Virus record (IMG/VR): IMGVR_UViG_3300013285_000061
Location: 1-27,098 of that record
Strand: one strand, 5' to 3'
Source: a virus
Length of the DNA stretch: 27,098 bases
Shown: positions 1,235 through 20,267 of the stretch, one piece after another
Layout of the letters: every line of letters starts with the position of its first letter
How positions within the stretch are numbered: position 1 is the stretch's first letter
Notes under the pieces: generated by a model
The model's database searches: none
The model's input: the letters and a program-made list of their open reading frames with translations, nothing else
Told to the model about the DNA's origin: nothing
Position numbers and translations under genes: made by a program

Positions 1235-3811
1235 ATGACGCAACAGATAATCAATACGGGAACATCAGCCAATTCAGGCACTGGCGATACACTTCGCACC
1301 GCCGGCACCAAGATAAATGCCAACTTTACTGAATTGTACACTACTCAGTATCAGTTGCCCAATCAAACAAACAACGCTGGCAAAGCTCTTGTAACCAATG
1401 GTGCTGTAGCCACTTGGCAGCCTATTACTGTGACCAATGGAGTATTGACCACTGGCAACTACAATGACCCCAGCTGGATCGTTAGTCTAAGTTATGGTAA
1501 AATTTCTGGAGCACCGGGCGCTTACACGTTGCCAACTGCTACCACAAGCACACTAGGCGGCGTCAAAATAGATGGTACATCTGTGGTCATAAACAGTAAC
1601 ACTGGTACAATAAGTGCAGTGGTTCCCACAGCAACAACGGCCACAATTGGCGGTGTCAAAGTAGACGGAAGCAGTATCACTATTAATAACGGCACTATAA
1701 GCAGTGCGCCCTACAATTTACCCACTGCAAGCACAAGCGTCCTGGGTGGTGTGAAAATTGATGGCACCAGCATCACAATCAGCAACACTGGAGTCATAAC
1801 AGCAACACCCTATGCTTTACCTTTATCCACAAGTCAAACTCCAGGCGGAGTTATAGTTGACGTCAGCAGTATCAATATCAATAACGGTGTGATTTCTGCT
1901 GTGCCAGCCAATATTAGATCTGTAGCAGCCGCTATGTTGTCGGGAGGTTCTCAAACAGGCATAACATTTAGTTACAATTCAACAACGGGTTTGATGACTT
2001 CAACGGTAACAGGCGGAGCAGGAGGATCGGGTATATCGGGGGTCACTGTGCAACAAGCTGGCAGCACACAAGGCAGCGCTACTTCAATTACCACATTGAA
2101 TTTTACTGGCGCAGGTGTTACAGCAACAGCGTCTGGCAGTGTGGCAACTTTGAATATTCCCAGCACATCCTATACTCTGCCCACTGCAACAGTTGGTACC
2201 AGCATATCAGGAACTCTTGGCGGCGTTAAGGTTGACGGTAGCACAATCACCATAACATCTGGCGTTATCAGTAGTGTGTTTCCTGTTGCCAGCACCAGCA
2301 CTGTCGGAGGTGTAAAAGTAGATGGCACCAGCATTACAGTCAACAACAGTATCATCAGTGCAACACCTTATTCACTGCCCACAGCTAGTACAAGTGTATT
2401 GGGTGGAGTCAAAGTAGATGGTGTCTCCTTGGTTATCAATTCTGGAACCGGCATTATCAGCAGTGTGGTTCCAGTGGCCACTACCACGTCTATAGGAGGC
2501 GTAAAAGTGGACGGCTCCAGTATCACAATCAATAATGGTGTGATAAGTGCTCCCACCGGATATGTTTTGCCAACATCCAGTCCCACAGTGCTGGGAGGAG
2601 TCAAAGTTGACAACAGCACAGTAACCATCAACGGATTCGGAGTAATCAGTGCGGCACAATACATCTTGCCTTCAGCTACTGATACCACCTTGGGAGGTGT
2701 TATCATTCCTGCGGTTACTGCTTCCGGCATTATACAAAGTTCAGGATCAATTATCATAGCCACAGCCAGTGCAACACAACTGGGTGGTGTAAGAATTCCC
2801 GCAGTTGGCACCAGTGGCATAACCAATGCCAGCGGCACTTTGGGCTTGGCCGTAGCCAGCACCACCCAAATAGGTGGTGTGAAAGTTGACGGTACAACTA
2901 TTACAGTCAATAACGGAGTGATCAGTGCTCCGATAGGTTATGTGTTGCCAATTGCTAGCACAAGCACTCTGGGTGGTGTGAAAATTGATGGCACCAGCAT
3001 AACAATTACCAATGGTGTGATAACTTCCAACATCACATACAGTCTCCCAACAGCCGGTGTTACCACGCTGGGAGGTGTTTATATTCCCGCAGTGGCCACC
3101 AGTGCTATCAATAATTCAGCAGGCACAATCAGTGTTGCAACTGCTAGTACGTCGCAACTGGGCGCTGTTAAAATTGATGGTACAACAATTAATATATCCA
3201 GTGGCACAATATCAGTACCCATAGCCAGCGCACTCACATTGGGTGTGGTCAAGGTGGATGGCTCCAGCATCACAATTAATCCAAGCACTGGTGTCATCAG
3301 CGGAGCCAGTACATACACTTTGCCTACTGCCAGTACAAGTGTGCTAGGCGGTGTAAAAGTTGATGGATCCAGTATCACTATTAATAATGGTGTGATAAGT
3401 TCCTCGGGCGGCGGCGGTGGCACACTCAGTAGTAGAACAACCGTACAAGTGACTACAGCTACTTTGGCAGTTGGATCCAGTTCACCAGCCACAGTTACCG
3501 CTGCCAAAGGATATGCCTTGTACAATATATCTTGCACATCAGGAGCATGGGTCACGGTTTATACCAGCAGTACAGCGCAGGCTAACGATAGCTCAAGAAC
3601 AATAACCACTGACCCCACACCAGGCAGTGGTATAGTTGCAGAATCAATAACAATTGGTAATACTGCCACGTCGACAGATTTTACTCCGGCCGTTATGGGA
3701 TTCAATAACGACGCTACCCCAAGCGCAAACATGTATCTGAAGATTTATAATAATGGTGGAGTAACTGGTGCTATCACAGTTACAATTACATATCTTAAAC
3801 TAGAAGCATAA
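1235..3811 (+). CDS. repeat-built tail fibre protein, 858 aa
   Basis: The start is ATG 1235, 7-8 nt after AAGGAA; an in-frame TTG at 1217 inside the previous gene is less likely. The N-terminus (residues about 5-36: INTGTSANSGTGDTL, then KINANFTELYT) is the attachment-type motif common on fibres of T4-like cyanophages. Residues about 99-725 are roughly 17 degenerate repeats of about 31-33 aa with core LGGVKVDGSSITINNGVIS, preceded by LPTASTS. One long non-repeat insertion lies after repeat 4. A Gly-rich hinge (SSGGGGG) leads to a distinct C-terminal domain of about 130 aa that lacks repeats and is the candidate receptor-binding tip. This is most likely a long trimeric beta-fibre. It lies directly upstream of the S53 peptidase gene, one base apart. 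Family-level call only. Confidence 0.8.
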   Translation: MTQQIINTGTSANSGTGDTLRTAGTKINANFTELYTTQYQLPNQTNNAGKALVTNGAVATWQPITVTNGVLTTGNYNDPSWIVSLSYGKISGAPGAYTLPTATTSTLGGVKIDGTSVVINSNTGTISAVVPTATTATIGGVKVDGSSITINNGTISSAPYNLPTASTSVLGGVKIDGTSITISNTGVITATPYALPLSTSQTPGGVIVDVSSININNGVISAVPANIRSVAAAMLSGGSQTGITFSYNSTTGLMTSTVTGGAGGSGISGVTVQQAGSTQGSATSITTLNFTGAGVTATASGSVATLNIPSTSYTLPTATVGTSISGTLGGVKVDGSTITITSGVISSVFPVASTSTVGGVKVDGTSITVNNSIISATPYSLPTASTSVLGGVKVDGVSLVINSGTGIISSVVPVATTTSIGGVKVDGSSITINNGVISAPTGYVLPTSSPTVLGGVKVDNSTVTINGFGVISAAQYILPSATDTTLGGVIIPAVTASGIIQSSGSIIIATASATQLGGVRIPAVGTSGITNASGTLGLAVASTTQIGGVKVDGTTITVNNGVISAPIGYVLPIASTSTLGGVKIDGTSITITNGVITSNITYSLPTAGVTTLGGVYIPAVATSAINNSAGTISVATASTSQLGAVKIDGTTINISSGTISVPIASALTLGVVKVDGSSITINPSTGVISGASTYTLPTASTSVLGGVKVDGSSITINNGVISSSGGGGGTLSSRTTVQVTTATLAVGSSSPATVTAAKGYALYNISCTSGAWVTVYTSSTAQANDSSRTITTDPTPGSGIVAESITIGNTATSTDFTPAVMGFNNDATPSANMYLKIYNNGGVTGAITVTITYLKLEA
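1529..3405 (+). repeat. about 17 tandem degenerate protein-coding repeats
   Basis: In-frame repeats of about 90-100 bp encode the LPTASTSxLGGVKVDGxSITxNNGVIS unit. Conservation is clear in protein but degenerate in DNA; the best-kept stretches encode GGVKVDG and ITINNGVI. Three units replace KVDG by a I(I)PAV variant (around 2700, 2790 and 3080). One unit near 1850-1900 is followed by a non-repeat insertion reaching about 2175. Repeats of this kind can expand or contract by recombination, changing fibre length. Confidence 0.85.
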
Positions 3812-3812
3812 T

Positions 3813-5387
3813 ATGACCACAAGTACTTTAAAAAATCTTGATGATACTATATTGATTAGTGTCTATCTCAAAAGAGATTTGCATGAGAACGGCATGACTT
3901 TGCAACAGTATGCTGATGGAGTAATAGCCGGTACACATGCTGTATTAGATCATGACGAATACATTTATCAATTTGGTTCTACCGAAGATGCAACTATAGA
4001 AGTGAATGATTTTTTCTATCATAATAATTTTACTATTGTAGAAGCCAGTCGTGGTAGGGGTGTGGTACAGATTACAGGTACTGTAGAAAATTTTAATAAA
4101 ACATTTGGAATAACATTGTTAGATGTCACTGATGATACTGGCCGAATCTACATGATGTACGAAGGCGCCATAACAATTCCAAGTGAAATTGCCAGCCTAG
4201 TTGAACCTATTCAAGGGTTTGATCAAAGTTTTATAGCAGTAAAAAATGCAGTTATATGCGACGCCAATACTGTTGATCCGTTAGTATCAGTTAGTCCTGT
4301 ACAAATGGCAACTGCATATGGTATGCCGCCTGGAACTGGATATGGCGGGTGTATTGGCATATTTGAATTGACCTATAGCGGATTTGTTACCGGTTATAAT
4401 CAAACGGATGTTACCAATAGTTTTTCTCGTATTGGACTTACTGCTCCTAAAATAGTTAATATAAATGTAAATGGGGCTACAGTTAGTTCAACTAGTGATA
4501 GCGAAAGCATGTTAGATATCTACTGTGCAGGCGCAATATCTCCAAGATCTCGCATAGCATACTACACTGCCCCAAACAGCGGAACGCAAAATATTATTGA
4601 TAATATACTTGCTGCCGCAAATGATACAACAAATAATCCATCAGTACTTGATATTAGCTGGGGAATTGGTGATGGAACACAATACGATACTGCATTTCAG
4701 TCCTGTGTTGTAAAAGGTATAACAGTATTTGTAAGTTCGGGAGACAGCGGCGCTAACAATTTGAATATAACAGCTTCATGTTGTAGTGCCTACATGGTTT
4801 CGACAGGCGGCACCAGTGTTTTTCTAAATGGCAGTAATCAAATTACCAGTGAAGTTGCCTGGAGCGGCAGCGGCGGCGGCATCAGTGCGTCTGTATCATT
4901 ACCTAGTTGGCAAACTGGGCTTACTACAACAACTAAAACAGCCAGCTCAACAGGAACGCCAACAGCATTGCCTCGACGAGGAGTTCCAGATATAAGTGCT
5001 CCTGCTGATCCCAATACAGGGTTCGCATATTTTATTAACGGTGTTCTTAGTCAAGTTGGCGGAACAAGCGCCTCTGCGCCATTGTTGGCAGGCATGTGGG
5101 CAAGACTAAATGCCCAATTAGGATATCGGATACCGTTTAATATGACCACTTGGTATTCAAACAGAGCATTATTGTTCAACGATATTATCAGCGGTGATAA
5201 CAGGAACGGATTAACCACAGGATATACAACCACAGCAGGGTGGGATGCAGTAACTGGCCTTGGCACACCAAAAGCAGATCAGATTTACAAGTATTTCCAT
5301 ACAGGCAGTACTTTCCCAAAGCAAAATTATGGATTCAGACCCACTACAGGATTTGCCTATCCTAGGAAAACCACTGGTGTTAGATAA
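3813..5387 (+). CDS. S53 family serine peptidase (sedolisin/kumamolisin-like) with pro-domain, 524 aa
   Basis: Residues 1-147 look like a pro-kumamolisin activation domain (VVQITGTVENFNKTFG, later VEPIQGFDQ). The catalytic domain follows, opening with SPVQMATAYGMP (about 161-172). The catalytic residues of the family are all present in the expected order: E231 and D235 in ESMLDI (the ExxxD pair), D311 in SSGDSG (oxyanion Asp) and nucleophile S419 in GGTSASAP. The C-terminal calcium site is also recognisable (D457-I458 and the AGWDAVTGLGTP segment). Length matches bacterial sedolisins. There is no signal peptide or membrane segment, so export would need virion incorporation or release at lysis. 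It sits between a fibre gene and a structural-type gene on the same strand, suggesting a virion-associated or fibre-processing protease. Sedolisins typically work at acid pH. The enzyme class is well supported; the role is inference. Confidence 0.92.
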   Translation: MTTSTLKNLDDTILISVYLKRDLHENGMTLQQYADGVIAGTHAVLDHDEYIYQFGSTEDATIEVNDFFYHNNFTIVEASRGRGVVQITGTVENFNKTFGITLLDVTDDTGRIYMMYEGAITIPSEIASLVEPIQGFDQSFIAVKNAVICDANTVDPLVSVSPVQMATAYGMPPGTGYGGCIGIFELTYSGFVTGYNQTDVTNSFSRIGLTAPKIVNINVNGATVSSTSDSESMLDIYCAGAISPRSRIAYYTAPNSGTQNIIDNILAAANDTTNNPSVLDISWGIGDGTQYDTAFQSCVVKGITVFVSSGDSGANNLNITASCCSAYMVSTGGTSVFLNGSNQITSEVAWSGSGGGISASVSLPSWQTGLTTTTKTASSTGTPTALPRRGVPDISAPADPNTGFAYFINGVLSQVGGTSASAPLLAGMWARLNAQLGYRIPFNMTTWYSNRALLFNDIISGDNRNGLTTGYTTTAGWDAVTGLGTPKADQIYKYFHTGSTFPKQNYGFRPTTGFAYPRKTTGVR

Positions 5388-5439: not shown

Positions 5440-6051
5440 ATGCAGAGCAAAGATCAAACAGGAATTCACATAGAAGGGCATATAAAAATATTCGATCCTA
5501 CTTCCAAGGAAGTATACATCGACAAACGCAATGCCATTCATTATGAAAACATGAGTTATGCTTTGGCACAAAGTTTGTCCAACAGCATTAACGGTGGATA
5601 CATTTATCAAATGAGCTTTGGTAACGGTGGCACAAGCGTTGACCCCACAGGAATTATTACATATCTCACTCCCAACACCAGCGGAACCAATGCCAGTTTG
5701 TATAATCCTACATACTCAAAAGTCATAGACCCTAATGCGGCTACCAATACGGATCCCACAAGAAATTTCACCGAAGTAAGACACACAACTGGATACAATT
5801 ACAGCGACATTTTCTGTACTTGTTTGTTAGACTACGGCGAGCCCAGTGGCCAGGCAGCATATGATACCACAAATACAGGCGAACAAACTTTTATATTTGA
5901 CGAATTGGGTTTGGTGAATTACAGTGCAACCGGTACCAATTTGCTATTGACTCATGTGATATTTCATCCTGTACAAAAAAGTCTCAACAGGCTTATACAG
6001 ATAGATTATACAGTTAGAATCCAAAGCCTTACAGGCTTGGTAAGTGTATAA
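5440..6051 (+). CDS. phage virion structural-type protein, 203 aa
   Basis: I do not assign a specific function. The N-terminal part (IEGHIKIFDPTSKEVYIDKRNAIH, read here as two pieces around residues 10-33) followed by ENMSYALAQSL and a segment IYQMSFGNGGTSVDPTG resembles a conserved structural-type protein of T4-like aquatic phages. The rest is beta-rich with polar turns and ends in a strand-rich region (LIQIDYTVRIQSL). The start is ATG 5440, after a purine-rich GAGAGA and a late-promoter-like octamer. It is followed after 10 bases by the collar-domain fibre gene, whose Shine-Dalgarno overlaps this stop codon. Probable baseplate or tail component. Confidence 0.65.
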   Translation: MQSKDQTGIHIEGHIKIFDPTSKEVYIDKRNAIHYENMSYALAQSLSNSINGGYIYQMSFGNGGTSVDPTGIITYLTPNTSGTNASLYNPTYSKVIDPNAATNTDPTRNFTEVRHTTGYNYSDIFCTCLLDYGEPSGQAAYDTTNTGEQTFIFDELGLVNYSATGTNLLLTHVIFHPVQKSLNRLIQIDYTVRIQSLTGLVSV

Positions 6052-6061
6052 GGAGAATTAG

Positions 6062-8350
6062 ATGCCATACACCGTTCCCTATACCGATTCAACTAATCCT
6101 GCCAAGCCAGCCATCACGGTAGCTGATGGTGCCTTGAACAATCAAACCAGTCTTACTTTTGTGGGCAAAAACTATGCAGGTTATGCTCCAATACATGCTG
6201 CCGACCTGCTACATTTGCTTGAAAATTTTGCATCACCTAATGCACCTGCTAATGCAGTACAAGGACAGTTATGGTATGACACAGCATTGGGCAACAACAT
6301 ACTAAGAGTATATGATGGTGCCGGTACCTGGAACGAAGCTGGTTCAATCAAACGAGCTGGTGTGACTACACTGGCAGCCACCGGTGGTGTGCCTGACATC
6401 ACCAATGCCACTGCCGGTGATTTATGGGTGGACACTGACAACAGCCAATTATATTTGTTCTCAGGCAGTAGCTGGCTGTTGATTGGTCCACAATTCAGTG
6501 CAGGTAAAGCCACAGGCCCGTTGGTTGAGTCAATAACTGACACTGCCAACGTGGTACACAGCGTGATAAGTTTGTATGCGGCCAGTTCGCAGGATAGTTC
6601 TGCCTATCGCATTGCTATTATCAGCAAAGATACCTTTACTCCTAAAACTACCATTACAGGTTTTGGACTTATCAACGCTGGATTAAATCTGTCATCTAGC
6701 ATTTCCACAGACTCATCGCAGACTCCTACCAACATTTGGGGCAACTCTCAAGCGGCCAATGCTTTGAATGTGAATGGTGTAGCTGTGTCGGCAGCAAATT
6801 TCCTTAGAGGTGATGCCAGTGCAGGCAACAGTCAAACTACATCTAATGTGCCTATCAATATCAGAAACACTGGAGGCTTGGGCATAGGTGGCGATCTAAG
6901 TTTTAATATCAGTCAAGCCACTTCTGGTTTTGTTTTCAACAGCACCAGCAGTACCAACAGCATTGATTTTATTCTAAGCGGAAACAATTTGGTGCATCTT
7001 GCTCCATCTGGCACCGTCGGTATAGGTAACGGCAACACTTCACCTTCGTCAACGCTGAGTGTGGCTGGAGTTATCACGTCCGGCGCGGTAAACACATCCG
7101 GAGGCATTGTGATCAAATCAGCTGCCAACGGCATACTAACAACTGTTTTTAATCTTGATACCACAGCAGGCATCGCAACAAGTTTACCTACCACAGTTAC
7201 AAACACAATTACCGCTAACGCCATAGTGATCAGTCCTACAGCTTTGCCAGGCACAGTAATCAGTCCTCCTCCGCTGACCAACAACACAACCAGCAACTAT
7301 GATATTGGAAGTCAAACTAATCCTTTTAGGAATGTATATGCCCAGTCATTTGTTGGTAGTTTCAACGGCAACTTTACAGGCAGTGTGACAGGAAGTGTGA
7401 GCGGTACAGCTGACAGTTTAAAAACGCCCATAGTATTTAAAGTGGCAGGCGATTTAATTTCCAGCGACACCGGCACGGTGTTCACTGGTCAAAGCCCTAC
7501 AGGTGTGGCCACGCTGAATGTTACAGCAAGCACTGCATTGATCGTAGGCACAGTTGCTTCACCCAGAACAGCTGCCACTTCAACGTCAACTGGTGACAAG
7601 TTCTTGGCTTATCAAACAGCAGGCGGCGGTCAATTGGTTTCCATGGACAAGGCCACTTATTTGAAGCTTGATGCCGCATTGTTGCACAGCGGCTATGGCA
7701 CACCAATTGGCTCAATAATTGCGTGGGGAGGATCCTCAATCAGTTTGAATGGGGTGCCTCCAGGATGGTTGCTTTGCGATGGAGCAGAAGTGAAACAAAC
7801 AGATTATCCGTCATTGTATAAAGTAATTGGACTTTCTTTTACTCCGCCAGGAGGACTGCAAGGTAAAAATACTTTTGCTTTGCCAGATCTTCGAGGAAGA
7901 TTTGCACTGGGCAGAGACAACATGAACAATCTCACTGACGTGGCAAACTTTGCGCAAGTGCTCAACGATGCAGGCACGAAAATTTTAACAGGCGGTCAAA
8001 AAGGTCCAGCTAATAGAGTACAGGACTCTAGTGCAATTGTTGTGGGAGGATACGGCGGCGGCCAATATGTCACATTGACTACAGCTAATTTGCCAGCTCA
8101 CAGCCACACATTGACCAGTTCAGCTGGTAATCAATATTATGCAGTTAGCAGTGTTACATCCGATGCAGACACCAACTCCGTACAAGGTTATGGCATAGCG
8201 GGCCAGCCGTCAGGCACTGCCAAAGGACTCAAGAGCAGCGGCAATGTGAATTATAGTGGTTCTGGTACTTCAACCGGATCAGCCGCTGTGAATGTCATGA
8301 ACAACTATCAAACAATAAACTATATTATATTTTCGGGATCTAATTTATAA
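6062..8350 (+). CDS. tail fibre with phage tail-collar domain, 762 aa
   Basis: AAGGAG overlapping the previous stop sets the start. Residues about 17-200 form a module shared with the next two genes (FVGKNYAGY, LLENFA, GQLWYD, GDLWVDTDNSQLYLF, GSSWLLIGP). The middle is Ser/Thr/Gly-rich fibre. A tail-collar domain occupies roughly 546-615 (GTPIGSIIAWGG, PPGWLLCDG, LPDLRGRFALGRD), followed by a His-containing tip (LPAHSHTLTSS). Collar domains are typical of C-terminal fibre ends of phages and R-type tailocins. The stop overlaps the next ATG by one base (TAATG), so translation is probably coupled. Likely one of three alternative or co-assembled short fibres. Confidence 0.88.
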   Translation: MPYTVPYTDSTNPAKPAITVADGALNNQTSLTFVGKNYAGYAPIHAADLLHLLENFASPNAPANAVQGQLWYDTALGNNILRVYDGAGTWNEAGSIKRAGVTTLAATGGVPDITNATAGDLWVDTDNSQLYLFSGSSWLLIGPQFSAGKATGPLVESITDTANVVHSVISLYAASSQDSSAYRIAIISKDTFTPKTTITGFGLINAGLNLSSSISTDSSQTPTNIWGNSQAANALNVNGVAVSAANFLRGDASAGNSQTTSNVPINIRNTGGLGIGGDLSFNISQATSGFVFNSTSSTNSIDFILSGNNLVHLAPSGTVGIGNGNTSPSSTLSVAGVITSGAVNTSGGIVIKSAANGILTTVFNLDTTAGIATSLPTTVTNTITANAIVISPTALPGTVISPPPLTNNTTSNYDIGSQTNPFRNVYAQSFVGSFNGNFTGSVTGSVSGTADSLKTPIVFKVAGDLISSDTGTVFTGQSPTGVATLNVTASTALIVGTVASPRTAATSTSTGDKFLAYQTAGGGQLVSMDKATYLKLDAALLHSGYGTPIGSIIAWGGSSISLNGVPPGWLLCDGAEVKQTDYPSLYKVIGLSFTPPGGLQGKNTFALPDLRGRFALGRDNMNNLTDVANFAQVLNDAGTKILTGGQKGPANRVQDSSAIVVGGYGGGQYVTLTTANLPAHSHTLTSSAGNQYYAVSSVTSDADTNSVQGYGIAGQPSGTAKGLKSSGNVNYSGSGTSTGSAAVNVMNNYQTINYIIFSGSNL

Positions 8351-9642
8351 TGACTTATGCTATAACATTAACAAACGGATCATCGTTGATACCAGGCGGG
8401 CTTACCGACGGCACTATAGACCAAACTCATACAGATTTGACATTGGTGGGCAAAAATACTTCCAACTATGGATTATATTTCAACGATAATTTTGTACACC
8501 TGTTGGAAAATTTTGCAAACGTAAGTCAGCCAAATCATCCTCTAACAGGTCAACTGTGGTTTGATACAAATTCTAATAGACTGTTGGTATATGATGGCAC
8601 AGCGTTTAAGGTCAGCGGCGGCACACTGGTTTCTGACACTGCTCCTAGCGGATTGACCACTGGCGATATCTGGATCAACAGTAGAACAGGCCAAGCGTAT
8701 TTTAATGACGGCACAGCAAACATATTGGCCGGCCCAATTTACAGCAAACTGGACGGACCATCAGGATTTATTGTTGAAAATATATTGGATGTGACTGGAC
8801 AGAGGCACACAATAATAAAACTACTGATAGCAAATAATCTAATGGGAATATTTGCCAAAGAAAGTTTTGTGCCGCAATCCAGCATCAGCGGATTTACCAG
8901 CACCTGTGTCTTTACTGCCAATCAAATTGGCACCAGCTTGGTTGTAACCAACGTAACTTCTGGTATTATTGGTATAGGTCAAAGTGTTGTGGGCGCAGGA
9001 GTGCCTCTCAATACTGTTATCACCGCATTTGTCTTAGGATCTGGTACAAACGGAGGTGTGGCAACATATACAGTTAGTACATCTGCTACTGTGGCAACCA
9101 GCACTATGAGCGCCATCTCTGGCACTATAAATGTAGGATTCAATTCAAGTACATACCCTAATATTAAATTCAATGTGCCAGTAACACAATCTACAAGTTT
9201 ATTGGCAGCTGATGGCTCATTGAAGAGTGCTGAGCAATTTTTATCAACAGACAGCTATCAGAATACCACAAGTGGTGCGTTGCAAATAACAAATGCAACT
9301 CCTCTTACATTGGGCACTGGCGGATATTCAGCTGTTAATGTGTCGGTGGGGACTTTTGAATTAACCAGTAAAGTTCCCAATCAGAATTTTCAAATATCCG
9401 TAAGCAACGGCTCTGGCTACAATCAGGCCTTGTTTGTGAATGCCGCAAACAGCACGGTGGGTATCTATCAAAGTTCGCCAACAACAACACTTGATGTTAA
9501 CGGCACATTCAGGGTTAATACACTTACGCCAGCAACAGCGTCAAGCGCGGGTGTTGCAGGACAAATTGCCTGGGATTCTAGCTATGTTTATGTGTGTACA
9601 GCTACAAATACGTGGAAAAGAGCCGCTATAAGTACCTGGTAA
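8350..9642 (+). CDS. tail fibre, paralogue 2 of 3, 430 aa
   Basis: It shares the N-terminal module of its neighbours (TLVGKNTSNYG, NDNFVHLLENFAN, PLTGQLWFD, GDIWINSRTGQAYF). Inserted at residues about 184-257 is a module absent from the other two paralogues (see the separate entry). After it come a fibre region and a C-terminus (TTLDVNGTFRVN, GQIAWDSSYVYVCTATNTWKRA) typical of fibre ends that stop at a Trp-rich strand. There is no collar domain, so its tip differs from the gene before it. The start codon overlaps the previous stop by one base; the Shine-Dalgarno is weak, which fits translational coupling. Confidence 0.85.
   Translation: MTYAITLTNGSSLIPGGLTDGTIDQTHTDLTLVGKNTSNYGLYFNDNFVHLLENFANVSQPNHPLTGQLWFDTNSNRLLVYDGTAFKVSGGTLVSDTAPSGLTTGDIWINSRTGQAYFNDGTANILAGPIYSKLDGPSGFIVENILDVTGQRHTIIKLLIANNLMGIFAKESFVPQSSISGFTSTCVFTANQIGTSLVVTNVTSGIIGIGQSVVGAGVPLNTVITAFVLGSGTNGGVATYTVSTSATVATSTMSAISGTINVGFNSSTYPNIKFNVPVTQSTSLLAADGSLKSAEQFLSTDSYQNTTSGALQITNATPLTLGTGGYSAVNVSVGTFELTSKVPNQNFQISVSNGSGYNQALFVNAANSTVGIYQSSPTTTLDVNGTFRVNTLTPATASSAGVAGQIAWDSSYVYVCTATNTWKRAAISTW
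8899..9120 (+). other. in-frame inserted domain within fibre paralogue 2
   Basis: In the paralogues a GF(G/D) segment runs almost directly into the following strand (ITGFGLINAGLNLSS in the 762-aa fibre). Here SISGFT is followed by about 74 extra residues and then TINVGFNSS. The extra block (SLVVTNVTSGIIGIGQSV, then TYTVSTSATVATSTM) looks like a recurring module I associate with unrelated phage and bacterial surface proteins. The boundaries are estimated from comparison of the three genes in this window only. Confidence 0.6.
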
Positions 9643-9679: not shown

Positions 9680-11167
9680 ATGTCATATACAATTAATCAT
9701 TATAATGGAACGTTATTAGCTACAGTTGCAGATGGCACGGTAGATACCTCTACTGATCTTACACTTGTTGGTAAGAATTATGCTGGATACGGCCAAGCAC
9801 AGAATGACAATTTCATTTGGTTACTAGAAAACTTTGCAAACACTACACAACCTCCTAATCCTTTAACAGGTCAAATTTGGTATGACAGTGCAAATAAGAA
9901 AATCAAATTCTGGGACGGCAATTATTGGAGAACTGGTAATGGTTCAGAAACTGCCACAGTGGCTCCAGCTGGTTTAACAGCAGGTGATTTCTGGTTCAAC
10001 ACTTCCAGCAACCAATTGTATGTTTACAATGGAAGCAGTTCTATCCTCATCGGACCACAAGAAGTAACAAATTTTGGAACTACACAGATGTTGTCAACAT
10101 CTTTGTTGGATTCCAGTAACAATCCTCATGCAGTTATACAAGGTATTGCGGCAGGCAATGTTATTTTTGTAATCAGCAGTGATTCTTTCACTCTCAGCGG
10201 CACCAATCCTATTAATGGATTCGACAATATTGTACAGGGTTTGACACTTGTAAATACGGTAGCAGCCAACAATGGAGTAACCAGTAACGGATATAGATTT
10301 CAAGGTACCGCCAGTAATGCAGACAAGTTGGGTGGTTTGAGTGCAAGTTCATATGTTACGGCAGGCACCGCATCATTCAGCAGTGTTACTAACTTCAGTG
10401 ACGGCGGTTATACTATAGGTAGTCCTAATGTTAAACTAACAGTATCTAATGTAAGCGGGGTCCCTACCCTTTCAAGTGCTGGCAACATTGTATTTAATAC
10501 AACCACAGCCCTGGGCTCTGTTAAGAACCCACTTGTACTAAACGGATTAGATGTATTACCAGGCGCCAGCGGTGTAAGTAATCTAGGAAGTAGCGGATAC
10601 CAATGGCAAAACATTTATGCAGGCTATGTGTGGGCAACTGCAAACAAGGCAGACCAACTAAATGTTGGCGGCAGTTATGTACAAGCCAGTGTTGCAAGCA
10701 ACCCAACCACAGTGGTAGCAAGAGACAGCAATTCAAATATCAATGCCAATTTGTTTAATGGAACTGCAACTGCGGCTCAATATGCTGATTTGGCAGAAAA
10801 GTATCTACCAAGTCCTGAATTTGGTGAACTAATAGCAGGCACAGTTGTAACTGTTGGGGGTTCTGCAGAAATTTGCCCATGCAATGAATTTGGAGCACAG
10901 CCTATCGGAGTGATAAGTACTAATCCAGGCTACATGATGAATAAGGATTTGGTTGGCGGAGTTTACGTGGCATTGAAAGGCCGCGTACCTGTGAGAGTTA
11001 TCGGAGGATGCAGTAAAGGCGATCAAATGGCACCCTATGGCAACGGATTGGGAGCCAGCGTAACTGTAACATTCCCAGGAGCCCAAGTACAGCCTATTGT
11101 GTTTGCAGTAGCCTTAGAAGATTGCGCAACAACTGAAGAAACTCTTGTAGAGTGCGTGATTCTTTAA
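9680..11167 (+). CDS. tail fibre, paralogue 3 of 3, with C-terminal YADLAEKYL domain, 495 aa
   Basis: The N-terminus is the clearest copy of the shared module (LTLVGKNYAGYG, NDNFIWLLENFANT, PLTGQIWYD, GDFWFNTSSNQLYVY, SILIGPQEV). A middle fibre region (SNLGSSGYQWQNIYAG) leads to a C-terminal domain at about 368-495 (QYADLAEKYLPSPEFG, GTVVTVGGSAEI, PIGVISTNPGYMMN, VYVALKGRVPVRV). This resembles the C-terminal chaperone-type or auto-cleaving domains (Peptidase_G2-like) of fibres and spikes, but I cannot show a catalytic dyad. The domain contains several Cys residues (around the CPCNEF segment and near the C-terminus). A late-promoter-like octamer precedes the gene. Confidence 0.85.
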   Translation: MSYTINHYNGTLLATVADGTVDTSTDLTLVGKNYAGYGQAQNDNFIWLLENFANTTQPPNPLTGQIWYDSANKKIKFWDGNYWRTGNGSETATVAPAGLTAGDFWFNTSSNQLYVYNGSSSILIGPQEVTNFGTTQMLSTSLLDSSNNPHAVIQGIAAGNVIFVISSDSFTLSGTNPINGFDNIVQGLTLVNTVAANNGVTSNGYRFQGTASNADKLGGLSASSYVTAGTASFSSVTNFSDGGYTIGSPNVKLTVSNVSGVPTLSSAGNIVFNTTTALGSVKNPLVLNGLDVLPGASGVSNLGSSGYQWQNIYAGYVWATANKADQLNVGGSYVQASVASNPTTVVARDSNSNINANLFNGTATAAQYADLAEKYLPSPEFGELIAGTVVTVGGSAEICPCNEFGAQPIGVISTNPGYMMNKDLVGGVYVALKGRVPVRVIGGCSKGDQMAPYGNGLGASVTVTFPGAQVQPIVFAVALEDCATTEETLVECVIL

Positions 11168-12682: not shown

Positions 12683-13033
12683 ATGGATGAAAAAATTGAA
12701 AAAGCATTTGCTGTGGCTAATTTTGCTGCCACACTATCGAATCAAAGACGCATTATTTTAGAAGAATTTAATCAAAAGCTGTCCTATTACACCAACGGCG
12801 CAACCTTTAAAATAAGCCCGGAGCTAATCAATTTTGCAAAAACTGTAGTTGATCTTGGTCACACTGAGGATACTGCATTTATTGACAGCAATAATTATCC
12901 TGTGGTAATATCAAATGTAAGAGAATTTTTGGACAACATAGTGTCTATCTACTTTGAAGCATTGAACGAATACACAGTGAGATATGCAGAAATAAAAAAC
13001 AAAAGAAAAATCGCTGATATTGTTGAACTATGA
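12683..13033 (+). CDS. conserved-type phage protein of unknown function, 116 aa
   Basis: No function recognised. The protein is mostly helical, with an N-terminal helix (FAVANFAATLSNQRRIILEE) and a C-terminal helix rich in Tyr, Arg and Lys (YFEALNEYTVRYAEIKNK); it has no signal peptide or catalytic motif. I have the impression of similar short proteins in T4-like aquatic phages near structural genes. It has a good Shine-Dalgarno (AGGAG, 7 nt before ATG) and its stop overlaps the next start as ATGA, so it leads the glycosyltransferase operon. Confidence 0.65.
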   Translation: MDEKIEKAFAVANFAATLSNQRRIILEEFNQKLSYYTNGATFKISPELINFAKTVVDLGHTEDTAFIDSNNYPVVISNVREFLDNIVSIYFEALNEYTVRYAEIKNKRKIADIVEL

Positions 13034-13878
13034 CTGTTGGTGCAATCTTATTCGCGCAAAATAATCAAGCCATAGATTACACGCAAATGGCAGTGTTTGC
13101 CGCTGACAGAATCATGCAGTATCTTGATATTCCTGTGTCTATTATCACAGATGATAGAACTTATTTGCTGGAAAAATTTCCCCATCACAAATTTCAAAAT
13201 ATTATTGATATCCCGTTGACAGGAACAGCACAGCATAGAAAGTTTTTTGACGGTAGCCTAACAGCTAAAACAGCAACTTGGAAAAATCTAACAAGAAGCA
13301 ATGTTTATGATCTAACTCCTTATGATACCACAATTGTGTTGGATACTGACTATATCTTGAATTCGTCAGTATTGAAACCAGCACTTGATCTTGATCATGA
13401 CTTTCAGATATACAAACACGCATTTGATCTAGCAGGATATAGATCCAGCTCTGCATTTGCCAGAATCAATCCCTACTCGATTCCATTTTATTGGGCAACT
13501 GTTTTTATCTTTCAAAAAAATACAATCATGCAGTCGTTTTTTGTTCTCTTGGATCACATAAAAGACAACTGGATATATTTTAGAACTTTGTACACTGTAG
13601 ACAGCCCTATATTTAGAAACGACATAGCGTTCAGCATAGCCATACACATCATGAATGGAAAAAGCAACGGAGAATTTGCAGTTGAGCTGCCTGGAAAAAT
13701 GACGTTTGCAAGTGATAAAGATTATCTCATCAGCACTAATGGAAGTACTATGAAATTTCTAGTAGAAAAAGAAAAATATCTTGGAGAATACACAGCTCTG
13801 AATACCAAAGGTCTAGATGTACATATCATGAACAAATACAGTTTGAGTAGATATATCAACGGAGGCACAGGTGTCTAA
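13030..13878 (+). CDS. DXD glycosyltransferase-like protein (pair A, copy 1), 282 aa
   Basis: The N-terminal GAILFAQNNQAIDYTQMA begins a GT-A-like fold, and IVLDTDYIL carries a DXD motif (D105, D107) for metal and nucleotide-sugar binding. The next gene shares both features (LLFAQNTDNVNYVDQA and IVLDADMLL), so the two are probably diverged tandem duplicates. Size fits small single-domain phage glycosyltransferases. The ATGA overlap with the previous gene and an 8-base overlap with the next show coupled translation. Substrate is unknown; candidates are virion proteins, host lipopolysaccharide or modified DNA. The glycosyltransferase call rests on DXD context and fold pattern, not on a close named homologue. 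Confidence 0.72.
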   Translation: MTVGAILFAQNNQAIDYTQMAVFAADRIMQYLDIPVSIITDDRTYLLEKFPHHKFQNIIDIPLTGTAQHRKFFDGSLTAKTATWKNLTRSNVYDLTPYDTTIVLDTDYILNSSVLKPALDLDHDFQIYKHAFDLAGYRSSSAFARINPYSIPFYWATVFIFQKNTIMQSFFVLLDHIKDNWIYFRTLYTVDSPIFRNDIAFSIAIHIMNGKSNGEFAVELPGKMTFASDKDYLISTNGSTMKFLVEKEKYLGEYTALNTKGLDVHIMNKYSLSRYINGGTGV

Positions 13879-14722
13879 AGGATTTTTATTGTTTGCACAA
13901 AATACTGACAATGTGAATTATGTTGATCAAGCATATGCACTTGCCCTCAGTATCAAACACAGCCAAACTGAAATAAAAAATGTTTCTCTTGTAACTAATA
14001 GCAAAGTGCCAAAAAAATATCAAGATGTGTTTGATCATGTTGTTCCAATCCCATGGTTTGATAAACATGATAATAGTGCTTTTGCAGGAGAACATCGTTG
14101 GAAAATATATGAAGCAACGCCATATGAGGAAACTATTGTGCTGGATGCCGACATGCTGTTGCTGGAAGACATAGGCATCTGGTGGGAGTATTGCAGTAGT
14201 TATGATATCAAATTTTGTTCCAAAATCTACAATTACAAACTGGAGCACATTCCCTACGATACATTTCACAGAAAAACCTTTTTGGAAAATCAACTGCCTA
14301 ATGCTTATTTTGCTTTACACTATTTCAAAAAGAATAGACCAGCATATGAGTTTTACAAAGTGCTTGAATTTGTGTGCAACAATTGGGAGGCCTGCTACGA
14401 CATATATGCTCCTGCTTATTATCAAAAATGGTTGAGCATGGACCTTGCCTCGGCAATTGCATTGGAAATTACAGGCATGACTGAGCAAGCCATTGACAAG
14501 TGTGACCCTCTTGGTTTTATACACATGAAGACTGCATTGCAGGCCTGGCCAGTTGGCATTGATAGCTGGCAAAACATGGTTCCTTACATATTGAACAGCA
14601 AGGGCGAATTGATAGTAGGCAACATAAAACAAACCAAACTGTTTCATTATGTGGAAAAGAATTTTGTGACCAAATCTCTTATAGCACGATTAGAGGAGTT
14701 GGCCCATGCCGAGAAAATTTAA
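13871..14722 (+). CDS. DXD glycosyltransferase-like protein (pair A, copy 2), 283 aa
   Basis: It starts at GTG 13871, with GGAGG a few bases upstream inside the previous gene. Shared landmarks with copy 1 are LFAQN near residue 8, a hydrophobic core and a DXD at D92/D94 in IVLDADMLLLED. The LDADMLLL segment is close to that of GT8-like and GT-A enzymes. Other conserved-looking parts are HRWKIYEATPYEETI before the DXD and SMDLASAIALEIT near 200. No membrane segment or signal peptide is visible, so it acts in the cytoplasm. It overlaps the following gene by 17 bases. Confidence 0.75.
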   Translation: MSKGFLLFAQNTDNVNYVDQAYALALSIKHSQTEIKNVSLVTNSKVPKKYQDVFDHVVPIPWFDKHDNSAFAGEHRWKIYEATPYEETIVLDADMLLLEDIGIWWEYCSSYDIKFCSKIYNYKLEHIPYDTFHRKTFLENQLPNAYFALHYFKKNRPAYEFYKVLEFVCNNWEACYDIYAPAYYQKWLSMDLASAIALEITGMTEQAIDKCDPLGFIHMKTALQAWPVGIDSWQNMVPYILNSKGELIVGNIKQTKLFHYVEKNFVTKSLIARLEELAHAEKI

Positions 14723-15302
14723 ATTGGTTCTAGAGCCACAAAAATACTATCTACACTATGATAAAAAAACAGGAGTTATAGTAAGCATCAGCAACCAGTT
14801 GTGGATTCTAGGTAATCCTCCTGCCTTTGAAATTTCAGAAGAAGATCATAGGCAATTTAGGGCAGGAGAAAAAAAAGCTCATGACTATATCATTGGTTAT
14901 GCCAAAGGTTTATCTGGCAAGACTGAGCTCAGCTTGATACCTGTAACCACACAGTTGTACGGATTTAGGCACAATATATTTGAGTGGATCAAGGCAGCTC
15001 CTGATGCAAATACAGAATGCATAGTTACTTGGGATGCCAGTCGTCAAGCATGGTTTTTCTCTTTGTCAAAAAAAGCCAAGGAGAGACTGGCGGATGGTGT
15101 AATGCAAAACACAATATTTTTTGTCATGCTTCAGGATGACTTTGATTTCTTGATAAGAAGCATAATTATTGATATCAAAGAACTAGTAAAAGAGGATCAA
15201 ATAATGATTCCTTTTTCAAGCAACATAGAGTCCAAGATCAACAGGATTTCTATATCAAGTAGAATATTTTTTCAAAGTTATGGATTGATAATCAATGATT
15301 AA
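14706..15302 (+). CDS. protein of unknown function in glycosyltransferase operon, 198 aa
   Basis: Not recognised. The start ATG 14706 lies inside the end of the previous gene and follows GAGGAG closely; the end overlaps the next gene by 8 bases. The N-terminal third is polar with beta character (KLVLEPQKYYLHYDKKTG). A central segment (IFEWIKAAPDANTECIVTWD) and a hydrophobic C-terminal half (FVMLQDDFDFLIRSIIIDI) follow. It has no DXD or other catalytic signature and no signal peptide. Its position between two glycosyltransferase pairs suggests a role in the same modification pathway, possibly as a scaffold or acceptor, but that is only context. Confidence 0.65.
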   Translation: MPRKFKLVLEPQKYYLHYDKKTGVIVSISNQLWILGNPPAFEISEEDHRQFRAGEKKAHDYIIGYAKGLSGKTELSLIPVTTQLYGFRHNIFEWIKAAPDANTECIVTWDASRQAWFFSLSKKAKERLADGVMQNTIFFVMLQDDFDFLIRSIIIDIKELVKEDQIMIPFSSNIESKINRISISSRIFFQSYGLIIND

Positions 15303-16185
15303 AATTATAGAACAAGACATTGTGTTTCTCAGTTATGATGAACCAAATGCAGAAAAAAACTATGCGGATTTGCTTACGAAAGCTCCGTGGGCCAAACGAA
15401 TTCATGGAGTTAAAGGCAGTGATGCCGCGCACAAGGCCTGTGCGGCTATTAGTGACACTGAATATTTTGTCACAGTGGACGCTGACAACATTGTGGATCC
15501 AAGGTTTCTTGAAGTCGAAATTGATCTAGAAGCATTGGGACTATCAGACAGCAATGTGTTTTCATGGTGTGGCAAAGTACATGTTAATGGTTTGATGTAC
15601 GGCAATGGCGGATTAAAATTGTGGACTCGTAAATTTGTAAACCACATGCGCACTCATGAAAATAGTGATCCCAACGATATTAAAGGCAAAGTTGAATTTT
15701 GTTTTGACGACAAATATTATCAATTCAACGACAATTACAGTGAAAGTTATACCAACGCCACACCGTTCCAAGCATGGCGGGCAGGGTTTCGCGAAGGTGT
15801 TAAAATGAGCCTGGACCAGGGCGGAAAAACAAACGATTTGAAAAAAATCTGGTGGCAAAATTATCACAGATTGCTGATTTGGTGCAGTGTTGGTGCAGAT
15901 GTAGAAAATGGTATTTGGAGTGTGTTAGGAGCAAGGGAAGGCTGTTACAATACCATGTGTACAGAATGGGACTACAGCCAAGTGAGAGATTTTGAATACC
16001 TAACTGACTACTGGAACAAGAAACATAGAGATGCTGACAGTAAAGTAACCACTGCGTATATTAATTTTTTAGCAAAAGAATTAAAAGACAAATGCAGTTT
16101 AGATATTGCAAATCTGGATTCCGCAGGCAGTAAGTTTTTCAAAACTGTGTATCAAAATACACCTCGCATTATAAGAAGAAGATAA
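15295..16185 (+). CDS. DXD glycosyltransferase-like protein (pair B, copy 1), 296 aa
   Basis: The N-terminus IVFLSYDEPNAEKNYADLL, then AKRIHGVKG and FVTVDADN (DXD at D62/D64), forms a GT-A-type start. Later landmarks are YGNGGLKLW and PFQAWRAGFREG. All of these recur in the next gene in the same order (FISYNEPDADENY, AKRVNGVTG, VVDADA, YGYGGVKLL, PFSTWRSAFREC), which makes the two diverged duplicates. The family pattern is one I associate with small glycosyltransferases of T4-like aquatic phages. Copy 1 carries about 70 more residues, mostly at the C-terminus. Start and stop overlap both neighbours, so the operon is translationally coupled. Substrate unknown. Confidence 0.75.
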   Translation: MIKIIEQDIVFLSYDEPNAEKNYADLLTKAPWAKRIHGVKGSDAAHKACAAISDTEYFVTVDADNIVDPRFLEVEIDLEALGLSDSNVFSWCGKVHVNGLMYGNGGLKLWTRKFVNHMRTHENSDPNDIKGKVEFCFDDKYYQFNDNYSESYTNATPFQAWRAGFREGVKMSLDQGGKTNDLKKIWWQNYHRLLIWCSVGADVENGIWSVLGAREGCYNTMCTEWDYSQVRDFEYLTDYWNKKHRDADSKVTTAYINFLAKELKDKCSLDIANLDSAGSKFFKTVYQNTPRIIRRR

Positions 16186-16865
16186 TGTACGATATTGTTT
16201 TTATCAGTTACAATGAGCCAGATGCAGACGAAAATTATACTGTTTTAAAACATAGATTTCCACTTGCAAAACGTGTGAATGGTGTGACGGGAATTCATCA
16301 AGCACACATAGCGGCAGCAAGAAAATCCATGACAAAAATGTTTTGGGTTGTAGATGCTGATGCAGTGATTGTTAACAATTTCAATTTTGATCATCAAGTG
16401 AGTGAATGGGACATGGACGTGGTACACGTGTGGCGCAGTTTAAATCCTGTAGTTGATTTGAGTTACGGTTATGGAGGCGTGAAATTACTGCCTAAACAAT
16501 TGGTATTGCAAATGGATACTAGTTCAATAGACATGACTATGAATATCAGCAACAAATTCAAGGCCATGGATACAGTGAGTAATATCACAGCTTTTAACAC
16601 TGATCCATTCAGCACTTGGCGCAGTGCATTTAGGGAATGTTGCAAATTAACTGCCATTAATAACGATGAATCTTTATCTAGACTGCGCACATGGTGTGAA
16701 TTAAACGACAATGCTCCGTACGGATTTTATGCTTATATGGGTGCAGTTGCTGGCCGTGCATACGGTGAAAAAAATGCCTCCGACAAGGAGGCATTGGCAA
16801 AGATAAATGATTTTACGTGGCTAGAAGATCTGTGGCTAGCGGAAAAATCTCAGATATCACCTTAG
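16185..16865 (+). CDS. DXD glycosyltransferase-like protein (pair B, copy 2), 226 aa
   Basis: This is a shorter relative of the preceding gene, with DXD at D57/D59 (VVDADAVI) and the same YGYGGVKL and WRSAFREC landmarks. The start shares one base with the previous stop (TAATG). It is the last plus-strand gene. Its last 53 bases overlap the convergent thyX gene, and its codons around residues 195-204 double as the intrinsic terminator of the opposite strand. It has no membrane segment. Function is inferred from the DXD context and the paralogue; acceptor and donor unknown. Confidence 0.72.
   Translation: MYDIVFISYNEPDADENYTVLKHRFPLAKRVNGVTGIHQAHIAAARKSMTKMFWVVDADAVIVNNFNFDHQVSEWDMDVVHVWRSLNPVVDLSYGYGGVKLLPKQLVLQMDTSSIDMTMNISNKFKAMDTVSNITAFNTDPFSTWRSAFRECCKLTAINNDESLSRLRTWCELNDNAPYGFYAYMGAVAGRAYGEKNASDKEALAKINDFTWLEDLWLAEKSQISP
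16768..16795 (-). terminator. intrinsic terminator of the minus-strand thyX unit
   Basis: Read on the minus strand, a perfect 9-bp stem (AATGCCTCC / GGAGGCATT, loop TTGTC) is followed at once by a run of seven T (complement of the A run at 16768-16774; the stem is 16773-16795, sharing its last two bases with that run). It lies 17 bases beyond the thyX stop. On the plus strand there is no T run after the stem, so it works in one direction only. It is embedded in the coding sequence of the convergent glycosyltransferase gene. Confidence 0.88.
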
Positions 16866-17481
16866 CACAAGCAACAGCAACTTCTTGGTGTTCTTTCTGC
16901 GTGCCATTTGCACTGCGCAATTCAATAAAATGAATCCAACTGCGTAGTGTACCGTTCATATACAATCTGCTTTCTATTAAACCTTCAGGCAGTACTGCAC
17001 GAGCTTGTTCTTTAGCAATACCTTTTTCAATAGCCTGCTCGTAGATTAAACGACTATGTTCAACGATGAATTTTTGTTTGGCATCCCACCATGCTTGTAA
17101 CTCTGCATCGCTCGTAGAGATACTGTTTTGTCTGTTTTGATTATCTTGGAGTCGTGCTTCTCGCAATACAAACGACAGATCTCTAGTAGGGTCAGCATAT
17201 CGCTGACTGAATTCTTGAAAGCTGAAGCTACGATGTCTAAGGATCTGTCGTGCAATATCTCGTGTGGTGGTAATTTCAATGCAGGCTGACACCATTTCAA
17301 GTGGGCTCCAGTGTTGGTGTCGTATGAGGTATTGTATGAGTTTTTTGGATGTATCTGTGTTGAGTTGATTGGAGGGATTGCTGACACGGGCGCAATACGC
17401 AATGAGTTCCTGTGCATCTTGGATGCCAAGATCTGCAAATTCCTGTGTGGGTTTGGAATAACTGAGTAATCGAACATGCAT
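16813..17481 (-). CDS. thyX: flavin-dependent thymidylate synthase ThyX, 222 aa
   Basis: ThyX methylates dUMP to dTMP using methylene-tetrahydrofolate, FAD and NADPH. The signature RHRxxSxxExSxR is complete at residues 82-94 (RHRSFSFQEFSQR), with Q at the position often held by N. The C-terminal region (SRLYMNGTLRSWIHFIELR, then KEHQEVA) matches the nucleotide and flavin-binding end of the family. Length is normal for ThyX. It is the last gene of its minus-strand unit, with a terminator 17 bases beyond its stop, and it converges with the glycosyltransferase operon with a 53-base overlap. It begins 3 bases after the previous stop, without a clear Shine-Dalgarno, so coupling is likely. A phage ThyX supplies dTMP for replication and can replace a host ThyA. 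Confidence 0.97.
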   Translation of the reverse strand: MHVRLLSYSKPTQEFADLGIQDAQELIAYCARVSNPSNQLNTDTSKKLIQYLIRHQHWSPLEMVSACIEITTTRDIARQILRHRSFSFQEFSQRYADPTRDLSFVLREARLQDNQNRQNSISTSDAELQAWWDAKQKFIVEHSRLIYEQAIEKGIAKEQARAVLPEGLIESRLYMNGTLRSWIHFIELRSANGTQKEHQEVAVACAKVISEIFPLATDLLAT

Positions 17482-18732: not shown

Positions 18733-19020
18733 TTATCTCGAATCTAAATGCGGACAGGCAATTGTGAAAAAACTAAGTTCTTTTTCGTTCTCAAATCCAA
18801 TGGTTGTATTGTATATTATGGTATTATTGTTGTCTAATTCTATGCCCTGTCCAATATAATACCTATGATTCAAATTTTGCTTGATCCATAAATTGAGCTG
18901 TCTTATCAGATTGGGATTGTATTTGTCTATGGTTGTGTATTTGAAATGTGGGCAAGCAAAATCCACTTTGCGTAAATCAAAATAATTGAGTTGATTGGGC
19001 TTGCCCGTTTTCAATGCCAT
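18733..19020 (-). CDS. small protein of unknown function with two ACPH motifs, 95 aa
   Basis: Not recognised. It contains ACPHF near residue 25 and ACPHL near residue 90, a repeated Cys-Pro-His motif that could bind metal. Between them lie a helix (LIRQLNLWIKQNLNHRYYIG) and a beta segment (IIYNTTIGFENEKELSFF). The start shares one base with the stop of the VWA gene (TAATG), so it is translated by coupling. A 27-base gap with a good Shine-Dalgarno separates it from the next gene. Confidence 0.62.
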   Translation of the reverse strand: MALKTGKPNQLNYFDLRKVDFACPHFKYTTIDKYNPNLIRQLNLWIKQNLNHRYYIGQGIELDNNNTIIYNTTIGFENEKELSFFTIACPHLDSR

Positions 19021-20207
19021 TAAGCAGGCACCTTGGCTTGATCGTAATATGCAAATTCGCCAAATGGTGGAACAATTTTGTCGTTGCCATGAATAATAAA
19101 CACGGTATCACAGTAGTCCTCGTCGCCCCAACTGCCCCAAGGATAACCGTCAGTGAACATGATAAATTTCTTGGGTTGTATATCATGTTCTTTCATGTAG
19201 TTCCAGTTGGCATCAAACTCGGTGCCGCCGCCACCGATTGGCTCGTAGTTATCAAACTCGTCAATTGAGTAGCCATCGAATTCTGCTTCGTTGTAAACTC
19301 GAGTATCAAAGCACCATACTTTAATTTTAAAGTCAACATACTCTTGCATAATACCTTTAATTTCACTCAAAAAGTCTTTTGCTTGTTCATCACCGATTGA
19401 ACCAGACATATCAATACCAATACAAATATCGATAGTTTCTTGGAATTGTGTTCCTGGCAAGATTGCATTTATGTGCCAACCTTTACGGTTAGGACGCATG
19501 AACGAATAATCGTTTCGAATTGTACTTTGAATTTGTTGGCGCAAAATTTCACGCCAATTCATTTTCGGTTCTGTTAAGTCTTTAATCATACGTGCCACAT
19601 TTGCAGGAACATTGCCTGCGCCTGCGGCTTGAGCGGCCGCAATAGTAGCTTCACGCATTTCGTCACGAATCTGTTTTAGTTCGTCTTTGGTGTAGCTGGG
19701 ACGGTTGCCATTGGCATCACCTTCTCCCCAATCAATATGCTCATCCAACAATTGACCAAGGGCATTTAATTCTTCTTCGTCCATTTCGTCAAAAATCCTG
19801 TCATAGACTTCTTCTGCGCCCATGCCATAATATTTGCTGTCATGAAAGATTTTGATATCGGGAATGTTGTGATCGCCAATTCTATCACGTACCAATTGTC
19901 CGTTCACACAATAGTCAGCGGCAATATTGAAAATCTTTGCATCCCGGCCTTCTTTACGGCTCATGTGATCAAACACGTTGTGTAAAATTTCATGCGCAAT
20001 AACAAATTCAACTTGTTTGTTTGTGAGTTTTTCAAAGAATTCACGATTGAAATAAATGTGGCGTCCGTCAGTTGCGGCAGTAGGCAACCAATCTGTACCC
20101 TCTTTGATTTGCAAGCGAGTTGCCAAATTGCCAAAGAACGGATGTCGTAACAGTAGGCCCACACGGGCTACAATAATTTTGTCAATAATCGGATCTAAAT
20201 GTGCCAT
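19020..20207 (-). CDS. VWA-domain protein with HExxH metallopeptidase-like N-terminus (DUF2201-type), 395 aa
   Basis: The N-terminal half has HEILH (H72, E73, H76) in VEFVIAHEILHNVFDHMSR, typical of the putative zinc metallopeptidase half of VWA-like proteins. The C-terminal half is a von Willebrand A-like domain with the MIDAS motif DMSGS (D266, S268, S270), GGGGTE (T329) and FTDG (D353). The acidic middle (EMDEEELNA) fits this family. The start is ATG 20207, with AGGAG 5 nt upstream; a longer in-frame start at 20267 would lie inside the promoter and is rejected. It follows the MoxR gene, its usual partner. MoxR-VWA pairs act as chaperone-like remodelling systems; whether the peptidase site is active is unknown. 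Confidence 0.88.
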   Translation of the reverse strand: MAHLDPIIDKIIVARVGLLLRHPFFGNLATRLQIKEGTDWLPTAATDGRHIYFNREFFEKLTNKQVEFVIAHEILHNVFDHMSRKEGRDAKIFNIAADYCVNGQLVRDRIGDHNIPDIKIFHDSKYYGMGAEEVYDRIFDEMDEEELNALGQLLDEHIDWGEGDANGNRPSYTKDELKQIRDEMREATIAAAQAAGAGNVPANVARMIKDLTEPKMNWREILRQQIQSTIRNDYSFMRPNRKGWHINAILPGTQFQETIDICIGIDMSGSIGDEQAKDFLSEIKGIMQEYVDFKIKVWCFDTRVYNEAEFDGYSIDEFDNYEPIGGGGTEFDANWNYMKEHDIQPKKFIMFTDGYPWGSWGDEDYCDTVFIIHGNDKIVPPFGEFAYYDQAKVPA

Positions 20208-20238
20208 CTCTGCTCCTAAATGTTTACTGTATGTATAT

Positions 20239-20267
20239 ATTATAACACCTCCCAAAGGAGGTGTCAA
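20239..20267 (-). promoter_or_regulatory. perfect-consensus sigma70 promoter of the VWA unit
   Basis: On the minus strand TTGACA (20267-20262) and TATAAT (20244-20239) are separated by exactly 17 bases, the ideal sigma70 arrangement. The VWA ATG lies about 32 bases past the -10, with TTTAGGAGCA as leader Shine-Dalgarno. It sits in the 76-base gap after the moxR stop. The spacer is an inverted repeat (separate entry). Confidence 0.9.
20245..20264. repeat. 8-bp inverted repeat inside the promoter spacer
   Basis: ACACCTCC and GGAGGTGT flank a four-base loop (CAAA), a perfect palindrome-like stem. It spans nearly the whole spacer and the last three bases of the -35. Neither side carries a T run, so it is a poor intrinsic terminator. 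It could be a repressor or activator operator, or a hairpin that trims read-through RNA from the MoxR gene, whose stop is 19 bases away. Confidence 0.8.

Follow-up and report, generated by a model that had tools for sequence, protein, structure and literature searches.

A sedolisin-family (S53) peptidase gene directly behind a phage fibre gene and its possible role as an exchangeable fibre-tip enzyme

What use does a phage have for an S53 (sedolisin) peptidase, and why does the gene for it begin one base behind a fibre gene? The locus that raises this question belongs to a virus of freshwater bacteria, and the window analyzed here is the entire IMG/VR virus record of 27,098 bases. The S53 gene lies on the plus strand at 3813-5387 and encodes a kumamolisin-type protein, of the acid-protease kind, of 524 amino acids in one uninterrupted frame from an ATG start. 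An initial annotation had described a complete peptidase gene within a cluster of structural genes and suggested a protease that is either carried on the virion or matures the fibre.

The S53 identity of the protein is clear. Pro-kumamolisin (1t1e) was the best solved match in a phmmer search of the PDB (E=9.7e-59, residues 13-488), and a viral relative lacking the pro-domain matched 1t1g (E=1.6e-37). The pro-domain spans residues 12-137 (3846-4223) and is recognized by the Pfam model Pro-kuma_activ (PF09286, 1.1e-10). Since Pfam gives the catalytic region (about residues 160-492, 4290-5288) a weaker subtilase match only, the family assignment rests on solved structures and on the set of catalytic residues. 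Alignment to kumamolisin placed E231, D235, D311 and S419 just as the initial annotation had, and all four are invariant among the viral relatives (70/70, 70/70, 70/70 and 69/69, respectively). The calcium site near the C-terminus, also named there, is predicted from D457 and D478, which are kept in 68 and 69 of 70 viral relatives and in all bacterial proteins compared. The absence of a signal peptide was likewise borne out: in a simple hydropathy test, none of the viral S53 proteins showed a hydrophobic stretch at its N-terminus (highest 12-residue mean 1.67), while 36% of the bacterial S53 proteins exceed a 12-residue mean of 1.8 at the N-terminus. Judged by its sequence, the gene encodes an intact peptidase of the active type. 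An AlphaFold2 model of the protein, built from a 14-sequence alignment, was poor (pLDDT 57) and was set aside.

Where a pro-domain is present, it would help the enzyme to fold and would inhibit it, as the kumamolisin pro-domain does. The initial annotation had the pro-domain keep the enzyme inactive until assembly or contact with the host. The window protein does have the domain, but the idea does not extend to all relatives: one viral S53 clade (SH-aLRT 100; about 408-425 amino acids) consists of the catalytic domain alone with all catalytic residues kept, and therefore pro-domain control holds at most for part of the family. No separately encoded pro-domain was detected in 15 partial contigs of these phages by a query that was positive on controls. 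It is worth asking how the enzymes of this clade fold, since S53 peptidases are usually helped by their pro-domain. Two S53 genes without the pro-domain, L181:2459-3691 and L186:6411-7643, the latter in a 345 kb contig, were seen 35 nt behind a fibre gene with the tip domain described below.

Relatives of the S53 protein were found in 71 IMG/VR loci at 28-92% identity; many are near-copies, and 39 were left after collapsing. None of this kind occurred among 50,697 GenBank phage records, and hence none in the isolates represented there. The bacterial S53 proteins that we fetched are at most 36% identical to the viral ones, and a tree built from the catalytic domains of 39 viral and 25 bacterial proteins places the two sets on opposite sides of a single branch (SH-aLRT 99). 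Since the bacterial proteins were selected with patterns derived from the viral alignment, the selection may have passed over a closer relative among bacteria. A gp23-type capsid gene was present in eight of 15 large contigs, which identifies these phages as T4-like; the tail sheath model PF04984 gave no matches in the same contigs. The photosynthesis gene psbA was found in none of 13 contigs, and a cyanophage bearing photosynthesis genes is therefore not indicated as the source.

Several other genes of the window were recorded in passing. On the minus strand, it carries a ThyX-type thymidylate synthase (16813-17481) and a vWA/DUF2201 metallopeptidase beside a MoxR AAA ATPase (19020-20267 and 20284-21387), a pairing known from one jumbo phage group (PMC7824862). 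A QueE-like radical SAM protein (24435-25298) and a GTP cyclohydrolase I (26157-26921), both also on the minus strand, possibly belong to a deazaguanine DNA-modification pathway. Four plus-strand proteins at 13030-16865 look like glycosyltransferases and form two related pairs (13030/13871 and 15295/16185); neither Pfam nor PHROG gave a match for any of them.

The gene upstream of the peptidase encodes a fibre with phage-head-fibre-like repeats (PF11133, phrog_15343, phrog_958). Its open reading frame was drawn from TTG 1217, but it probably starts at ATG 1235, one base after the stop of the preceding gene, which ends at 1233, and it runs to 3811. With the peptidase ATG at 3813, a single base separates the two genes, in agreement with the initial annotation. 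The junction CTAGAAGCATAATATG (3800-3815) holds a Shine-Dalgarno-like AGAAG in the last codons of the fibre, then TAA, one base and ATG. The surroundings are structural as had been claimed: in addition to the PF11133 repeats there is a Phage Tail Collar domain (PF07484), and PHROG tail families lie nearby. Further downstream, three consecutive plus-strand fibre genes (6062-8350, which carries the Tail Collar domain, 8350-9642 and 9680-11167) have an N-terminal motif in common (LLENFA...GQLWYD-like).

The arrangement recurs widely. For 69 viral S53 genes, the contig includes the preceding gene. In 62 cases, that of the window among them, this is a fibre gene whose product ends with the same domain of about 127 residues, and in 61 of these the spacing is exactly +1 nt. 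Conversely, wherever a tip gene of these loci has a gene behind it, that gene is S53 (62 of 62). When fibre and S53 genes are left out, gene sharing sorts the loci into three main groups of 48, 14 and 7 loci plus three singletons, and the pair is thus conserved beyond its neighbors. Loss of synteny with structural genes had been named as an argument against a tail role; we looked for it, and the synteny holds. The fixed spacing would be explained by translational coupling, since the Shine-Dalgarno-like stretch lies in the last codons of the fibre. In L046 and L066, which have no tip gene, a Fe/Mn superoxide dismutase-like protein is encoded upstream of the S53 gene (L046:9059-9661 and L066:9032-9583), and the peptidase is fused to Ig- or cadherin-like domains.

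The fibre-tip domain occupies about the last 127 residues of the fibre (3425-3808, plus strand) and appears jelly-roll-like from our alignments A2 and A4, from an AlphaFold2 model and from matches to cyanophage tail-fibre proteins. The model, built from 66 sequences, is all-beta (pLDDT 96.2, pTM 0.90), and Foldseek found the same fold in cyanophage tail-fibre proteins with a TM of about 0.9. Against the PDB, Foldseek gave weak jelly-roll-type matches (best E=1.3e-3) and a sequence profile of the domain gave none. Because the fold matches in the PDB are weak, we read no function from the tip fold.

With the tip domain alone as a query, at least 599 matching stretches were found in IMG/VR, and the best 80 were analyzed. 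Directly behind the tip in these best 80 of at least 599, we found S53 in 31, an S8 subtilase of the cyanophage type in 41 and neither in eight, so that 72 of 80 carry one protease or the other; this survey, like the contigs, is biased towards relatives of the window. These counts use blastp classes since the S8 model also gives weak matches to some S53 proteins: of the 27 proteins in alignment A3, four of which are S53, Pfam assigned 22 to S8. The exchange occurs even within one backbone. Phages with the backbone of the window hold in this slot an S53 with the pro-domain, an S53 without it (L048-L055), an S8 protein of 879 amino acids (L171), or nothing. The slot is empty in L205, L209, L211 and L212, where the tip gene is immediately followed by a homolog of the next conserved backbone gene of the window (5440-6051, plus strand, phrog_11259); a search of these four partial contigs turned up neither an S53 nor an S8 gene, and the positive control worked. 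Slot proteins of 745-747 amino acids in L200, L203, L208 and L233 are akin to the S8 kind and are possibly inactive; simple catalytic motifs were not found in L200 and L208.

The S8 counterparts can also be traced to isolated cyanophages. In S-CREM1 and S-H9-1, an S8 subtilase with catalytic motifs begins 1 nt behind this tip; in S-CAM1 the tip is followed after 1 nt by a divergent S8 protease, and in S-H38 the tip and protease genes overlap by 1 nt. In P-SSM2, an S8 gene of the tail-fibre cluster overlaps the gene before it by 4 nt. A PF00082 domain is present in the tail-fibre cluster of the P-SSM2 record, and S8 genes there had therefore already been seen at the annotation level. Sf-CH1b and S-SCSM1 have an unrelated protein behind the tip, as does S-H9-1 at its other tip gene. 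In some cyanophages (L153:6566-8863, L155:6575-8878, L157:6322-8292) we noticed an unrelated protein of 650-770 amino acids ending in GIAFCARTT, perhaps another exchangeable tip protein. The published virion proteome of S-CREM1 comprises 14 detected proteins; S-CREM2 and S-SZBM1, which also have published virion proteomes, were not among the tip or S8 matches listed and thus do not bear on the matter.

S53 and S8 slot proteins alike end in a common pattern, roughly R-x-[TS]-G-x-x-[YF]-P-R. In the window it falls within residues 500-524 of the peptidase (TFPKQNYGFRPTTGFAYPRKTTGVR, 5310-5384, plus strand); examples are NYGFRPTTGFAYPRKTTGVR in the window, YRQRPTTGHIFPRIRNRR in S-CREM1 and LARPSSGTVYPRIRMRIHK in L171. 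A loose version, [YFW]P[RK] in the last 60 residues, occurs in 62 of 63 complete slot proteins. Among the remaining proteins encoded in the S53 loci, 10 of 806 have it, and none of the 59 bacterial S53 proteins does. The only other occurrence of the strict pattern in the loci was in L031, which duplicates the S53 gene of the window. The tag stands behind the S53 catalytic domain in 60 of 60 genes with an upstream tip gene and in 0 of six without one (Fisher test 1.1e-8, which ignores relatedness and was not relied on alone). L066 is nested in the tip-bearing part of the tree and has neither tip nor tag, carrying Ig-like repeats. One S53 protein, L045:1-1683, has collagen-like GPQGPTG repeats and two YPR copies of the tag. 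Given this co-occurrence, the simplest reading is that the tag is a docking element for the tip domain. Neither the S8 subtilases in the same slot nor the common tag figured in the initial annotation.

These findings are best read as an association of the S53 protein with the fibre, and we infer its presence on the virion. It seems reasonably probable to us that the peptidase is a structural passenger of the tail, a tag-docked and exchangeable fibre-tip enzyme that cuts a host surface protein, because its active site is invariant, its gene is coupled to that of the fibre, the tag is common to both protease families, and the slot is exchangeable or dispensable. The enzyme would be made by coupled translation right behind the fibre, would dock by its C-terminal tag on the jelly-roll tip domain, and would ride on the virion as one of several alternative tip enzymes. 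During adsorption it may then cut pili, S-layer, an outer-membrane protein or another envelope protein of the host.

Another possibility is a protease of assembly or maturation, which would process a tail protein, the fibre or another, while the particle is being built and could be absent from the finished virion. Phages do have dedicated maturation proteases of the T4 gp21 type, and coupled translation with the fibre would suit such a role. The fibre-maturing alternative of the initial annotation has nevertheless lost ground and is, in our judgment, unlikely, because in several phages no protease accompanies the tip, which is followed by an unrelated protein or by nothing. Also, the slot takes either S8 or S53, which differ in specificity and pH habits, so no conserved cleavage appears to be needed, and a common tag would be expected of a bound component more than of a free enzyme.

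A third explanation is a tip adhesin comparable to the T-even gp38 type, in which the protease fold acts mainly as a binding scaffold and proteolysis is secondary or lost. The gene stands directly behind the fibre gene, as would be expected, and in some relatives the S53 domain is joined to adhesion modules, which are Ig-like, cadherin-like, glycine-rich or collagen-like; gp38 of phage PP01 is reported to sit at the tip of the long fibre and to bind OmpC (PMC12892980). A mere scaffold, however, would be expected to lose the Glu, Asp, Asp and Ser residues, which are invariant at 28-92% identity, and we consider this explanation rather improbable. A soluble enzyme that is only transcribed together with the fibre, and that either leaves the cell at lysis or works in the host cytoplasm in takeover or peptide scavenging, would agree with the late operon and the missing signal peptide. 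It is very improbable given that the gene is linked so exactly to a single family of fibre domains in different backbones and that the tag co-occurs with that domain.

Whether the fibre-tip enzyme reading extends beyond the window is a more evenly balanced matter: T4-like phages of both freshwater and the sea may share a widespread socket at the fibre tip, into which interchangeable S53 or S8 proteases fit by way of one C-terminal docking tag, with proteolytic depolymerases as a general class of entry enzymes. Known phage entry enzymes mostly cut sugars or peptidoglycan. If these proteases are virion-borne, protein receptors or coats would become targets that are cut as well as bound. Such a socket would also account for the unexplained subtilisin-like genes in cyanophage tail clusters, and the tag predicts a docking site that is directly testable in isolated cyanophages such as S-CREM1 and S-H38. 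Among the full-text papers covered, we found no account of a phage S53 peptidase or of a cyanophage S8 protease as a fibre-tip enzyme.

With the kumamolisin and sedolisin peptidases (PDB 1t1e, 1sio, 1ga1), the window protein has in common the pro-domain, the Ser-Glu-Asp set, the oxyanion Asp and the calcium-site Asp. It differs in the additional C-terminal tag and in the location of its gene behind a phage fibre gene. The viral proteins as a set lack a signal peptide, a secretion signal being usual but not defining in S53; they are separate from the sampled bacterial proteins, and one clade has no pro-domain. The cyanophage cassette of tip and S8 protease (S-CREM1, S-H38, S-H9-1), annotated as "peptidase" or "subtilisin-like serine protease", has the tip domain, the coupled junction, the C-terminal tag and the structural cluster in common with the window but a different pro-domain and an S8 catalytic domain. 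S8 and S53 are different families of one clan. Since the window has S53 and no S8 catalytic domain, it is a variant of the cyanophage cassette that lies outside its S8 kind.

The likeness to gp38-type tip adhesins of T-even phages such as PP01 is one of position: there too, the gene behind the fibre gene supplies the tip protein (PMC12892980). However, gp38 is a receptor-binding protein, and the window protein belongs to an enzyme family. The polysaccharide depolymerases of tailspikes and fibres would share with it the role of a virion-borne enzyme acting on the host surface, and the tip protease may be regarded as their proteolytic counterpart. Unlike them, it would cut protein, and it is a separate polypeptide that would dock on the fibre.
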